Source of the DNA: Lachnospiraceae bacterium
Lineage (GTDB): Bacteria; Bacillota; Clostridia; Lachnospirales; Lachnospiraceae
Direction: 5' to 3'
DNA length: 38,407 nucleotides
Assembly: GCA_017617395.1 (NCBI GenBank)
Contig: JAFZWG010000062.1
Span: forward strand, 1-38,407
Part shown: in pieces, positions 2,835 to 9,372 of the stretch
Position numbering within the stretch: position 1 is the first letter of the stretch
Layout of the letters: each line of letters begins with the position of its first letter
Notes under the pieces: model-generated
What the model was told of the DNA's origin: nothing
Database searches by the model: none
What the model saw: only the letters and a program-made list of their open reading frames with translations
Program-made: the position numbers and the translations under genes

Positions 2835-3692
2835 CTAAATGTACAATGAGTTCTCTTCCTTCACTTCGCGCGCCTCGCGGATCATGTGGAGCGCCGCGGG
2901 GATGAAGGCGATGACAATGAGCTCCGACAGCGGCAGGATCATGCTGACTTTCACCGAGGTAAGCCGCTTGATCAACACGAGCTGCATGACGTTGTATGCC
3001 GCGACGAGCAGAAGATATGCGACGATCTCGACGACGCAGAACACGGTAAATGCACGGAGCCTGCGTTCGAGTGCCTGCGTCGCGCCCTCGCGCCGGTAGC
3101 GCCGTACCACGAGCGCGGTCAGAAGAAATGTCGCCGCCAGTGCGATGTCCGAGATGATTCCGAAGACTGCCTTTCCGATCCGGAACGCGTCGTCGAACGG
3201 AGTAGTGTCACCGATCCCGCTCTGTTCCTTAACAAAAACATACACTCCGGAAAATGCAACCGCCACCAGGACGATCGCCGCCAGAATGCAGAGCCGCTCC
3301 ATCAGCCGAAGCGTTTCCTCACGCGAGCCGCGGAGCAGCTTCAGGCTGAACCGAAGAACGAGATAGCAAAGCACCAGCGAGTAAAATGCACACGTGATGA
3401 CCGAGACGCCGAGATCCGCATCGATCGGTGCGCCGAGCATCGACCAGTCACCGATCAGCATCGGATTGACGGACAGGTAGATCGTGACCGCCTCCGCAAT
3501 GGCAATCGGGATCAGACAATAGTCAACCAGGAGGGATTTCTTTCGCAGCCGGAGCACAACCAGCACCGCAACCGGAATCAGGCTGAGCAGAACGAGCAGC
3601 GCCCAGGCACACAGATTGCCGAACGTCCCCGACAGTGACATGTTTCGCAGGAGCTCCCCCAACCGGCGAAACGGAAAATTCGTAATGTTCAT
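2835..3692 (-). CDS. Polytopic membrane protein of unknown function
   Basis: 285 residues with about seven hydrophobic segments, roughly at residues 24-47, 54-74, 93-115, 133-153, 168-190, 207-230 and 246-266. Arg-rich loops (RLRKK, RRYRREG, RRLRA) should face the cytoplasm by the positive-inside rule. No family is recognised. Its position before a YozG-like regulator recalls DUF2975 and similar small membrane proteins, but it is longer than those. The start was placed at the ATG at 3692 because AGGAGG lies 5 nt upstream; an in-frame TTG six codons earlier would place the ribosome site inside the gene. First gene of the operon with the regulator and lipoprotein. Confidence 0.8.
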   Translation of the reverse strand: MNITNFPFRRLGELLRNMSLSGTFGNLCAWALLVLLSLIPVAVLVVLRLRKKSLLVDYCLIPIAIAEAVTIYLSVNPMLIGDWSMLGAPIDADLGVSVITCAFYSLVLCYLVLRFSLKLLRGSREETLRLMERLCILAAIVLVAVAFSGVYVFVKEQSGIGDTTPFDDAFRIGKAVFGIISDIALAATFLLTALVVRRYRREGATQALERRLRAFTVFCVVEIVAYLLLVAAYNVMQLVLIKRLTSVKVSMILPLSELIVIAFIPAALHMIREAREVKEENSLYI

Positions 3693-5926: not shown

Positions 5927-6811
5927 CTAGCGTAAAATGTTCCCGATCTCATTCGCAACCTCATCGATCGTCATGCCGGGCTGTATCGCGGGGTGGTAAA
6001 GCACCTCGAACAAAATCCAGTCGAGCTTTGTCGGCTCCTGGACCTCGTTGTAGCCCTGATAGAAGAGGCTTTCCGGATATTTATATGAGTCATTCTGAAG
6101 GCCGGTGCACTGCACAAGCTCCTCCCAGATGACAGAATTCCGTTCGTGCTGCGACATCGACGTGCGAATGCCGATGCGCGATTTGATGATGGCCGAGCCC
6201 TGGAACCAGCATGTGGCAAATCCATCCGTGAGGTCGGTGATGTTCGACGGTGTGATCTCGTCGTATTTGTCATCCGGGTAGAAATACATGCACACGTTGG
6301 CGTCGTCCTCGTAAAGCACCTCGCTGATGCCCGGGAAGCCGTTCACGCGGTTCATCGCGCTGTAAATGTTCGCAAGCACCTGCCGGTCCTTCTGCGTCGG
6401 AGTTCCTCCGATATAAATCTTGATCGGCGAAGTCCACTTGTGGACCGCATATGCGCTGACACCGTATTCCACGCGCAGCGCGACTTCGTCGAAATACTCC
6501 AGAATCTCCTCCGCGCGGTACCCGTGCCGGTCCACGCGGCTGCTCGAATCCGCCCCGGTGATTCTCGGCGTCGGAGAAACCTTCTCCGTCGGCGTTCCGG
6601 CCTTGGGCGTTGCCGTCGGTTTCTTCGTCGGAGCCTTCGTTATCGTCCCCGTCGGCGGTGTGACGCCCGGCGACAGCAAAAAGCCGTGCTCATCCCGCAT
6701 GCTCGGTGCCTGCACCTCACGCCTTGTGGCGCGCGGCTGCCCGCAGCCGCCCAACATGACCGCCGCCAGCAACAGCAACACCGCTGCAATTGTCGCTTGC
6801 CTATGCTTCAT
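5927..6811 (-). CDS. DUF2927-like lipoprotein
   Basis: 294 residues. The signal peptide has a lipobox ending at Cys23 (LGGCG), followed by a Lys/Thr/Pro linker (APTKKPTATPKAGTPT) that should span the wall, then a globular domain. Segments such as YIGGTPTQKDRQVL, ISEVLYEDDANVCMYF and NSVIWEELVQCTGLQND match the general pattern of DUF2927. That group has a Glu/Gln-containing helix followed by a LGLxND-type motif and resembles degenerate zinc-protease domains. Function unknown. The start at 6811 was chosen because AAAGAGGA lies about 8 nt upstream; the open frame continues 16 codons further without a site. Its promoter -35 box lies inside the palindromic element at 6923-7238. Confidence 0.8.
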   Translation of the reverse strand: MKHRQATIAAVLLLLAAVMLGGCGQPRATRREVQAPSMRDEHGFLLSPGVTPPTGTITKAPTKKPTATPKAGTPTEKVSPTPRITGADSSSRVDRHGYRAEEILEYFDEVALRVEYGVSAYAVHKWTSPIKIYIGGTPTQKDRQVLANIYSAMNRVNGFPGISEVLYEDDANVCMYFYPDDKYDEITPSNITDLTDGFATCWFQGSAIIKSRIGIRTSMSQHERNSVIWEELVQCTGLQNDSYKYPESLFYQGYNEVQEPTKLDWILFEVLYHPAIQPGMTIDEVANEIGNILR

Positions 6812-6907
6812 CACATTCTTCCTCTTTCTTACGCACAAGTCTCTTCTCGTTCTGTTCACGCATCTAAACTTGTCCCCACTTCCGTCGCCGCACCGCGGCG
6901 CTTCCTC

Positions 6908-6936
6908 AGTATATCACATTTATTTGGGGGATTCAA
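6908..6936 (-). promoter_or_regulatory. Promoter of the DUF2927-like lipoprotein gene, embedded in element E1
   Basis: Minus-strand -35 TTGAAT (6931-6936), 17-nt spacer, -10 TATACT (6908-6913). The -35 box is part of the outermost stem of the palindromic element, so the element supplies an outward-facing promoter. Confidence 0.55.
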
Positions 6937-7238
6937 CTGGGGGGGAGATACGGCGGCCCCCACCGCTTGCACATCTTCGCGACAACGCGTGAGGCCTCTG
7001 TGACTCCGGCAGGGCACGGGGAATCTAAGCGCGCGCGGCGATCTCATGGGCGTTTCTGCGGGGCTCGCTTCGCTTCGAACAGTCCTCGAAACGCCCTAAT
7101 CGATCTTGCGCACGCTAAGATAGCCCTCCCGACGGCTGGTACCGTCGGGAGTTGCATGCCTCGTCACAGAGGCCTCGCGCGTTGTTGCGCACATCGGAAA
7201 GGGCGGTGGGAGCCGCCTCCACCGTTGAATTCTCTAAA
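6923..7238 (+). repeat. Element E1: 316-bp palindromic structured element (possible ncRNA or MITE-like repeat)
   Basis: No credible gene lies here; frames on both strands lack starts and ribosome sites. The stretch folds as nested stems. Outer arms 6923-6937 and 7224-7238 pair over 15 bp with three G-U pairs. 6952-6966 pairs with 7202-7216. 6982-7004 pairs with 7163-7185 over 23 bp with a single G-U. 7023-7036 pairs imperfectly with 7108-7122. 7048-7056 pairs with 7088-7096 (9 bp) around a core loop. A separate 10-bp hairpin is at 7126-7135/7142-7151. The G-U pairs are valid only if RNA is made from the plus strand. A related element lies inverted at 7438-7762. Confidence 0.75.
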
Positions 7239-7264
7239 ATAATATAACAAGAGGAGGCCGCGGG

Positions 7265-7394
7265 CGCGGATGTATCCTTTCACATCCGCGGCGTGGCGGC
7301 TCCGCGCACGAGGCAACCGGCCGAGAAGCGCCCCTTCGGGGCAGCGCCGAGGTCGGTTGGATGACAATCGGGGACAGTCCCCCTGTCATCTTTT
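7265..7394 (+). repeat. Folded module between E1 and E2, ending in a terminator-like hairpin
   Basis: Three consecutive hairpins. CGCGGATGT 7265-7273 pairs with 7282-7290. A 9-bp stem 7314-7322/7351-7359 (one G-U) encloses a GC hairpin at 7330-7342 capped by a cTTCGg tetraloop. GATGACA 7360-7366 pairs with 7384-7390 around GGGG/CCCC, followed by TTTTC, resembling an intrinsic terminator. The UUCG cap argues for function as RNA. Confidence 0.6.
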
Positions 7395-7404
7395 CACTCC
7401 GCGT

Positions 7405-7468
7405 GTCTTTTCTTCCCTCCCGGGAAGCGCTGCGCGCGTCTTTCCTTCCCTCTCGGGAAGCGCCGCGG
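7405..7468 (+). repeat. 33-bp direct repeat at the edge of element E2
   Basis: Two adjacent diverged copies start at 7405 and 7438 (each GTCTTTYCTTCCCTCYCGGG then AAGCGC). A third copy lies inverted at 7732-7762 as the other outer arm of E2. The inner copy is the left arm of E2; the outer copy looks like a duplicated end. Confidence 0.65.
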
Positions 7469-7762
7469 ATTCTCCTGCCTTCTTTGAAATGGGGGAAAAC
7501 ACGAAGGGCTCGGCGAGGAAGCATGTAACTCCCAAAGGCGACGCCTTTGGGAGGGATGTCTTGGCGCGCGGGAGCAGAGCATAGGCCGATTCGAGGACTG
7601 TTCGAAGCGAAGCGAGCCCCGCAGAATCGGCCTTGGTTATGCGGGTGAAGCGCGCGCATAGACATCCAGTACCCTGCGATCTCGCCGAGCCTCTTCGTGT
7701 TTCCCCCATCCAGAACCCTGGCGGAGAATCCGCGAGCACACCCCCGGGAGGCAAGAAAAGAC
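7438..7762 (-). repeat. Element E2: 325-bp palindromic structured element, inverted relative of E1
   Basis: Nested stems again. 7438-7475 pairs with 7723-7762, including a perfect 12-bp block 7464-7475/7723-7734. 7491-7517 pairs with 7681-7707 (27 nt with single-base bulges). 7554-7570 pairs with 7651-7667. 7579-7592 pairs with 7624-7642, and its 9-bp part 7584-7592/7624-7632 surrounds the core. The side hairpin is 7529-7538/7544-7553. The 37-nt core at 7590-7626 is identical, on the minus strand, to 7054-7090 of E1, while the flanking stems differ in sequence but stay paired. Size and layout match E1. Confidence 0.75.
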
Positions 7763-7791
7763 TTGCATTTTCCGGGGAAGGAGTGTAAGAT
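7763..7791 (+). promoter_or_regulatory. Promoter of the peptide-transporter operon
   Basis: -35 TTGCAT (7763-7768), 17-nt spacer, -10 TAAGAT (7786-7791). The -35 begins at the base after the outer arm of element E2 ends. The leader to the ATG at 7843 is about 45 nt. Confidence 0.65.
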
Positions 7792-7842
7792 GGGGGCGTA
7801 AAAATCTAATAAGGTCCACTGGAAAGTGGGGAAGGAGCAAAG

Positions 7843-9372
7843 ATGAAGAAAGTATTTGCTTGTTTTCTTCTTCTGGCAGCAACGATGACTGCACTTTGCG
7901 CATGCAAAGGCGGTACGAAGCCGGAGGAAAATCTGGAAGGTGGAGCTGTAGTTGTTGGAATCACACAGGATTTGGACAGTCTTGACCCTCACAAAGCGGT
8001 AGCGGCAGGAACCAGAGAAGTCTTGTACAACATCTTTGAGGGGCTTGTGAAGCCCGATAAGGATGGCAAACTGGTACCCGCAGTAGCGGAGAGTTACGAA
8101 ATCTCGGAAGATGGAACGACATACACGTTCGTGTTGCGCGAAGGCGTGAAGTTCCACAACGGGGAGACCGTTACGGCGGCCGACGTAGTATACTCGCTTA
8201 ATCGATGTGCAGGACGCTTGGAGACTTCCGATCCGGAGGTACAGGTGGTACCTGCATTTTCTGTTATTTCCGACATTGCAGCTTCGAAAAATGCGGCCGG
8301 CAAGGACGTGATCACGGTCACGCTGTCGAGCCCGAACACGGAGTTGATCGGCTTTTTTACAAGCAACATCATTCCGAAGAACTATGCGGATCAGGCGAAG
8401 GCGCCGATCGGCACGGGACCCTTCAAGTTTGTGTCCTACAAGCCCATGGTAGAGCTGGTCATGGAGAGATTCGATGACTACTACGGGCAGAAGGCACATC
8501 TGGCGAAGGTCACATTTTCCATCTCGGAAAGCAGCGACGCGGCATTTCTGCAGCTGCAGGCGGGAAGCATCGACATTTTCCCGTATCTGACGGTTGATCA
8601 GGCGGAGCAGCTCGAAGGCAAATTCACCATCGAAGTCGGCGACATGAGCCTCGTTCAGGGCCTATTCCTGAACAACGCGGTGAAGCCGTTCGACGATGTG
8701 CGCGTGCGCAAGGCCATGAACTACGCGATCGACAAGAAGGAGCTGTTGACGATGCTCAACGGCGGCTACGGCACGGCGATCGGCAGCGGCATGTACGCGA
8801 CGTTCGGCCTGTACTACGATGCGACGTTGGAAAATGCATACCCTCACGACGAGGCGAAGGCGAAGGAGCTGCTCGCTGAGGCGGGCTACGCCAACGGCTT
8901 TACGTTTACCGTGAAGGTGCCGTCGAACTACGTGTATCACGTGCAGACGGCCGAGGTTTTAGCGAACCAGCTGAAGAAGGTCGGCATCACCATGAAGATC
9001 GAGCTGATCGAGTGGGCGAGCTGGCTCTCGGATGTCTACAAGGCGCACAACTGCGAGGCAACCATCATCGGCCTCGATTCGCAGCTCGCACCGAGCGACA
9101 TTCTGAAGTACTACATCGGCGGCTCGGCGAAGAACTTCATGAACTATAAGAGCGATGCATTTGACGCGGCCTACACGAAGGCGACCGCAACCGCAGACAC
9201 GACGAAGAAGGTAGAGCTCTACCACGAGCTTCAGAAGTACTTAAGCGACGACGCAGCATCGGTATTTTTGCAGAGCCCGTCCCTGATGGTAGCCGTCAAC
9301 CCCAAACTCGCCGGCTACACCTTCTACCCCGTCTATGTCCAGGACATGGCCTCGGTATATTTCAAAGACTAA
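7843..9372 (+). CDS. Peptide-type ABC transporter substrate-binding lipoprotein (SBP family 5)
   Basis: 509 residues. A lipobox signal peptide (Cys21 in TALCACKGG) anchors it outside the cell membrane, where it captures peptides or similar solutes for the permease encoded next. Family features in order: VVGITQDLDSLDPHKA near the mature N-terminus, YNIFEGLVKPDKDGKLVPAVAES-type segment, LREGVKFHNGETVTAADVVYSL (the SBP_bac_5 signature), then GTGPFKFVSYKP and the C-terminal lobe with DVRVRKAMNYAIDKKELL. The ATG has AAGGAG 6 nt upstream. It is the first gene of an operon with a permease and a fused permease-ATPase. The ligand cannot be told from sequence; dipeptide, oligopeptide and nickel binders share this fold. 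Confidence 0.93.
   Translation: MKKVFACFLLLAATMTALCACKGGTKPEENLEGGAVVVGITQDLDSLDPHKAVAAGTREVLYNIFEGLVKPDKDGKLVPAVAESYEISEDGTTYTFVLREGVKFHNGETVTAADVVYSLNRCAGRLETSDPEVQVVPAFSVISDIAASKNAAGKDVITVTLSSPNTELIGFFTSNIIPKNYADQAKAPIGTGPFKFVSYKPMVELVMERFDDYYGQKAHLAKVTFSISESSDAAFLQLQAGSIDIFPYLTVDQAEQLEGKFTIEVGDMSLVQGLFLNNAVKPFDDVRVRKAMNYAIDKKELLTMLNGGYGTAIGSGMYATFGLYYDATLENAYPHDEAKAKELLAEAGYANGFTFTVKVPSNYVYHVQTAEVLANQLKKVGITMKIELIEWASWLSDVYKAHNCEATIIGLDSQLAPSDILKYYIGGSAKNFMNYKSDAFDAAYTKATATADTTKKVELYHELQKYLSDDAASVFLQSPSLMVAVNPKLAGYTFYPVYVQDMASVYFKD

Follow-up and report, generated by a model that had tools for sequence, protein, structure and literature searches.

A family of small mobile hairpins with a common tip in three bacterial phyla

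A stretch of 38,407 nucleotides from a rumen-type Lachnospiraceae bacterium (contig JAFZWG010000062.1; hereafter the window) carries two long hairpins, E1 and E2, with a common core and different arms. A preliminary description read the conserved loop and compensated stems as the signature of selection on the structure of an RNA or of single-stranded DNA. The question that the locus raises is what kind of element these hairpins are and how their arms stay paired.

E1 (6957..7210, minus strand) has arms at 6957-7004 and 7163-7210 and a side hairpin near 7127-7152, and E2 (7492..7707, plus strand) has arms at 7492-7506 and 7693-7707 and a side hairpin at 7529-7553. Direct reading confirmed that the 37-nt core at 7054-7090 is the exact reverse complement of 7590-7626; a repeat search returned the complementary pair 7045-7098/7582-7635 (54 nt, 91%). 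Both elements are real long hairpins, with z-scores of -10 to -12. E1 folds at -181.1 kcal/mol on the minus strand (z -10.4) and at -194.3 kcal/mol on the plus strand (z -12.1), with no shuffle of 100 folding as well in either case, and E2 folds at -139 kcal/mol (z -10.1; 0 of 200 shuffles). The stems had also been called fully re-paired. This holds for the outer long stems, which differ along their whole length, but the inner helices change at only two of nine pairs in the stem hugging the core and two of ten pairs in the side hairpin; by direct reading all of these changes are compensated, as had been claimed. The earlier failure to recognize a named RNA family was borne out by Rfam 15, which gave no match at gathering score in the whole window and none in 6800-7850 down to an E-value of 5. 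In 27 further loci, nothing at the element reached the gathering score, while other RNAs matched nearby.

The spacer between the elements (7248..7358, plus strand) shares 94% identity across about 110 nt with a stretch adjoining the pair on contig C33 of the same genome (23330-23438). A palindrome like GATGACAATCGGGGACAGTCCCCCTGTCATC, at 7360-7395 of the window in the spacer, has many matches in the same genome (contigs C53, C39, C96, C71, C2, C78 and C73). Two inner sequence types occur among E1, E2 and their six closest copies (a prefix g3 marks copies of the congener G003): type I in E1, C74b, g3C34a and g3C71a, and type II in E2, C74a, g3C34b and g3C71b. At the orthologous locus represented by C74a and g3C34a, the inner type differs between the two species, as if swapped.

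Scanning 99 genomes with a 30-nt core pattern (up to three mismatches) yielded four copies in the genome of the window and four in G003, with no match in the other 97. Among named genomes, the only exact 25-nt matches were four stretches of RUG12897, a rumen Lachnospiraceae MAG that we take to be the same as G003. A covariance model, the check suggested in the preliminary description, did find relatives: at E<=0.001 it matched in 6 of 200 family genomes, with at least ten matches in the window's own genome, at least 14 in G139 (14 candidates were scored per genome), two in G212 and one each in G002, G099 and G129. The mismatch-tolerant core scan added one match in the own genome, at C74:11041. 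Of 392 genomes from the order, 8 contain the pattern TGTYTGAGCGAAGCGAGTTYCG exactly, and with up to three mismatches it matches 95 times in G456, 24 times in G139, 16 times in G268 and six times in the own genome; the same pattern read backwards matched ten times in G456 and never in the other seven genomes, a control that is not clean, the motif being mirror-symmetric. Partly fragmentary genomes supply much of the evidence.

The core also extends well beyond the family. In a sample of the phylum, it was found with at most one mismatch in 6 of 149 genomes, including that of the window, and it formed the hairpin tip in all eight loci fetched from five other genomes of the phylum. Outside Bacillota, it occurs at 15 places (up to two mismatches) on plasmid pILYOP01 of Ilyobacter polytropus (Fusobacteriota) and twice on plasmid pAT2 of Aureibacter tunicatorum (Bacteroidota), and on the plasmids of both phyla it is again the head of a hairpin. 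Among viral contigs, a looser pattern matched six, four of which carry the core at the tip of a hairpin, and two stricter patterns matched none. Matches of the E2 region from a first search (three plasmids, no phages) were short and chance-like and were set aside. Several loci are more complex. At L041 (contig C30 of the own genome, about 3014-3213) an extra hairpin is inserted inside the tip loop, and the Ilyobacter loci L200, L203 and L204 have extra sequence within the tip loop, all being nested insertions. In L196, and in most of the Ilyobacter copies that were folded (11 in all), a second hairpin comes next, with arms like GTTACTTTTC/GAAAAGTAAC; L197 has related arms after its core.

Comparison of related genomes shows that the copies are insertions. 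The orthologous locus of G003 (its contig C103) matches the window up to position 6932 and again from 7750, with 6 nt between, so that E1, spacer and E2 together form an 817-bp block (6933..7749) that this congener lacks. Two G003 copies are in turn absent from syntenic contigs of the own genome, where about 70 other bases (g3C71a) or 12 nt (g3C34b) are found instead. A G212 copy (G212b) is absent from all nine congener loci compared: 7-49 nt are left in five of them (14 nt in G551 and G593), and in the remaining four the site is occupied by 110-200 nt of different sequence. At the site of the G212 element (L026), the loci L121, L122 and L125 from the same genus carry a different inverted repeat with a common middle, CTCGACTAACAYGTCTCGCT, recognized by eye, which is perhaps a second tip-defined hairpin family.

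Orientation relative to genes is even. With ORFs of at least 100 amino acids as a rough stand-in for genes, the downstream gene has the same sense in 44 of 88 copies (25/47 in G456, 6/15 in G139, 5/10 and 6/7 in the window genus, 2/9 elsewhere), and a role as a gene-linked leader or terminator is therefore not supported. Among the copies listed, none from G456 overlaps such an ORF, and 7 of 17 from the window genus, which is GC-rich, do; the ORFs lying over the latter, for example 7234-8499 on the minus strand of the window, are taken to be spurious. Since empty or near-empty sites occur and orientation is even, we conclude that the copies are mobile hairpins, forming a family of small elements with a common tip in three bacterial phyla. 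Close neighbours in G456 (less than 6 kb apart, n=19, from 92 places on contig C1) are mostly in minus-plus order (13 pairs; plus-plus 4, minus-minus 2, plus-minus 0), which is the arrangement of E1 and E2. Terminal inverted repeats are recognizable in 15 of 43 G456 copies, none of these 15 has a clear target-site duplication, and the ends are not defined in the window clade; a near-repeat of 13-15 bp was seen at g3C34b only. Inverted copying of host flank at insertion is not claimed. Of eight flanks from four insertions, only one fell below 0.05, that on the left of the window block (p 0.005), and the site concerned has no pairing with E1. The case of E2, striking at first sight because 7405-7417 holds a perfect 13-nt complement of the G003 flank, gave 0.086, and the other flanks gave 0.11-0.99.

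What all these copies share is the tip. By direct reading, the heptamer GCGAAGC is intact in E1 (7067..7073, minus strand) and E2 (7607..7613, plus strand), whose type has other flanking bases and lies outside the set used for statistics. That set comprises 107 distinct copies anchored outside the heptamer, 99 of them with a stem by script score. In these 99, both closing pairs are Watson-Crick and position 5 is A without exception, position 3 is G in 96, and N is free; the tip is thus GC-GNA-GC. An equal-cost core scan, fairer than other searches, some of which favoured changes at N by design, listed 150 matches, and by a hand tally 38 of these have an altered heptamer: at N only in 29, at position 3 in five, at both in one, with the outer pair swapped two-sidedly in two and broken in one, and at position 5 in none. 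In G129, both heptamer pairs are swapped. The same rule of two closing pairs around a loop with fixed G and A and free N applies to the d(GCGNAGC) mini-hairpin: as reported in excerpts of PMC4686876, GCGAAGC DNA is exceptionally stable (Tm 78 C), and N in the GNA loop may be any of the bases, given at least two G-C pairs. In those excerpts it is a DNA fold for aptamers, whereas here it is the tip of a mobile element. ViennaRNA with DNA parameters did not form the mini-hairpin in any of four tips, and with RNA parameters the tip folds differently from it; the published chemistry suggests, short of proof, a DNA fold at the tip. The family core TTGAGCGAAGCGAGTT reads as a perfect mirror repeat, which would allow G-A pairs flanking the mini-hairpin.

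How the arms stay paired is a separate problem. The covariation proposed from E1 and E2 is upheld in eight close copies (four each from the own genome and G003), where 98.1% of cells are paired, two-sided changes affect 10 of 40 pairs, and the covariation score of 0.213, against 0.075 for shuffled data, is reached by 0 of 500 shuffles and exceeds every slid version; a measure of further pair types (12) does not stand above the shuffles, 347 of 500 reaching it. Among 15 close G456 copies there are 48 two-sided Watson-Crick changes, against about four expected if the arms mutated independently. Their spread is uneven, one copy having eight two-sided and no one-sided changes and six copies having 17 one-sided and no two-sided changes, a contrast picked after the data had been seen; it fits compensation that arises among source copies, with simple decay once a copy is inserted. 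Stem changes lacking compensation, which the preliminary description had named as evidence against it, count against it in part: they occur in the four orthologue pairs tested between the own genome and G003. The two clean pairs, C33a and C74c, have five and six one-sided changes and no compensated one, although in C74c one further base pair has both bases altered and does not match, and the rearranged pairs C46 and C74a have 21 and 19 one-sided and seven compensated changes each.

Do these data indicate a structured non-coding RNA, its arms kept paired by selection on the transcript and its copies being dispersed genes? The strong covariation is in favour of it, as is an excess of G-T over A-C mismatches in G139 (27 to 6) and in 38 G456 copies, which have 4297 Watson-Crick cells, 112 G-T, 42 A-C and 190 other mismatches (144 of the latter within 75 nt of the core). 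The bias is opposite in the window clade, where 16 copies have 22 G-T and 46 A-C; without G099, which the script misgrouped, the other 15 have 18 and 44. In a true-RNA control, RNase P of 20 congeneric genomes, the preference for G-U over A-C is stronger (21 to 4 one-sided changes) than the G-T preference of the 15 close G456 copies (23 to 11), and double changes are 30 transitions to 11 transversions, against 23 to 20; this tendency is compatible with RNA selection being weak or absent, though it does not decide the matter. Uncompensated drift in the two clean orthologue pairs and the insertions with empty sites argue in the same direction. Because the copies are insertions, are evenly oriented to the downstream gene and show a G-T over A-C bias with no consistent strand, we doubt selection on an RNA and regard this explanation as unlikely. 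Of the interpretation originally proposed, a conserved loop, compensated stems and some structure-level constraint stand, and RNA under selection is not established; single-stranded DNA, mentioned there as an aside, fits better.

A second explanation, which we consider quite unlikely, is an ordinary MITE-like repeat with no structure-specific mobility, its arms kept alike in place by template switching during replication. Template switching is reported to make the arms of inverted repeats alike (excerpts of PMC8604942), and the G456 arms are near-perfect. On the other hand, changes after insertion look one-sided (11 to none in the two orthologue pairs, 17 to none in the six close copies), and the conserved tip is left unexplained. 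Least probable, and in our view very improbable, is a single-strand origin or primase-loading hairpin of mobile DNA with a single-stranded phase: it would account for a long hairpin with a conserved loop and for the position of the pAT2 hairpin, which has a CHC2 zinc-finger gene on one side and two tyrosine recombinase genes on the other, but the copies are numerous and chromosomal, and the CS-6 motif TAGCGA/T of ssoA-type origins, as given in excerpts of PMC10378824, is absent by direct reading from the E1 and E2 core (TAGCGA does read in some relatives with T at N).

On balance, and with some reserve, we favour a protein-less, non-autonomous hairpin that is moved as folded single-stranded DNA. 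E1 and E2 would be two copies of such an element, about 225-350 nt long. The copies are insertions between genes, sharing the tip and differing in arms that have kept their pairing. The mobile form would be folded single-stranded DNA, in which the GC-GNA-GC tip, within its conserved flanking bases, may fold on itself into a very stable mini-hairpin and serve as the handle for an enzyme encoded elsewhere. The arms might stay paired in either of two ways: poorly folded copies fail to be propagated, or the making of a new copy includes rewriting one arm to match its partner. We lean slightly towards rewriting at copying. A transition/transversion test for arm copying does not settle the choice, two-sided changes even having more transversions than one-sided ones. 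A bolder version, which we offer as a doubtful possibility, is a self-templating hairpin transposon that inherits one arm and the GCGNAGC tip, the tip snapping back to prime the other arm and having spread through Bacillota, Fusobacteriota and Bacteroidota. Each new copy would be born freshly matched, and the arms could drift without limit while always pairing. Counting against the single-stranded DNA reading are the G-T excess in G456 taken alone, as RNA would predict, the compensated changes in C46 and C74a, the ViennaRNA result with DNA parameters, the fact that no enzyme was found and the lack of clear target duplications in the G456 copies with recognizable ends.

The search for a partner enzyme found none and gave one lead. 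The HUH family PF01797 is absent from four of eight carrier genomes tested (the own genome, G003, G259 and G367, the first two being 85% and 79% complete), and an HUH transposase as a universal partner was rejected on this ground. No transposase of the element's own was recognized in the neighbourhoods read, PF01797 being the only profile searched. Nor do wide pairs hold one: in G456, the two pairs whose members lie about 2.3 kb from each other have between them what we read as an alpha-galactosidase-like and a LacI-like frame. The CHC2 and tyrosine recombinase neighbourhood on pAT2 is a lead only. At L220 (pAT2, 160000-186000), about 8.2 kb with the CHC2 gene, the hairpin and the two recombinase genes occurs twice in tandem.

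Similarities to known systems are partial. Integron attC sites are also imperfect hairpins of variable sequence that are recognized by their fold. In attC sites, the base is conserved and the tip is variable, and the mobile hairpins described here are the reverse, with a conserved tip and variable arms. With MITEs and intergenic stem-loop repeats, as described in excerpts of PMC2267715, they share being short, non-coding, multi-copy, intergenic inverted repeats, and end repeats can be recognized in some G456 copies; in contrast to the MITEs described there, it is the tip and not the ends that is conserved across genera and phyla, a parent transposase was not found and there is no clear target duplication. 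REP/REPIN sequences with RAYT (excerpts of PMC3733652) are likewise dispersed palindromes, often in opposed pairs, but their stems are 5-13 bp as against up to about 150 bp here, and PF01797 is missing in half of the carriers tested. Searches of the open-licence PMC literature turned up no description of this hairpin family, and none of five core strings was found in the papers searched.

If borne out, the family would represent a widespread class of mobile hairpins, absent from Rfam and from the literature searched, whose defining feature is a DNA-type tip and not the ends; one genome alone has about 95 core matches. A warning follows as well, that covariation among multi-copy inverted repeats does not by itself prove RNA function: here compensated changes separate source lineages, whereas some inserted copies accumulate changes without compensation. 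If arm rewriting were confirmed, compensatory change in such elements would be automatic, and selection would be unnecessary to explain it.
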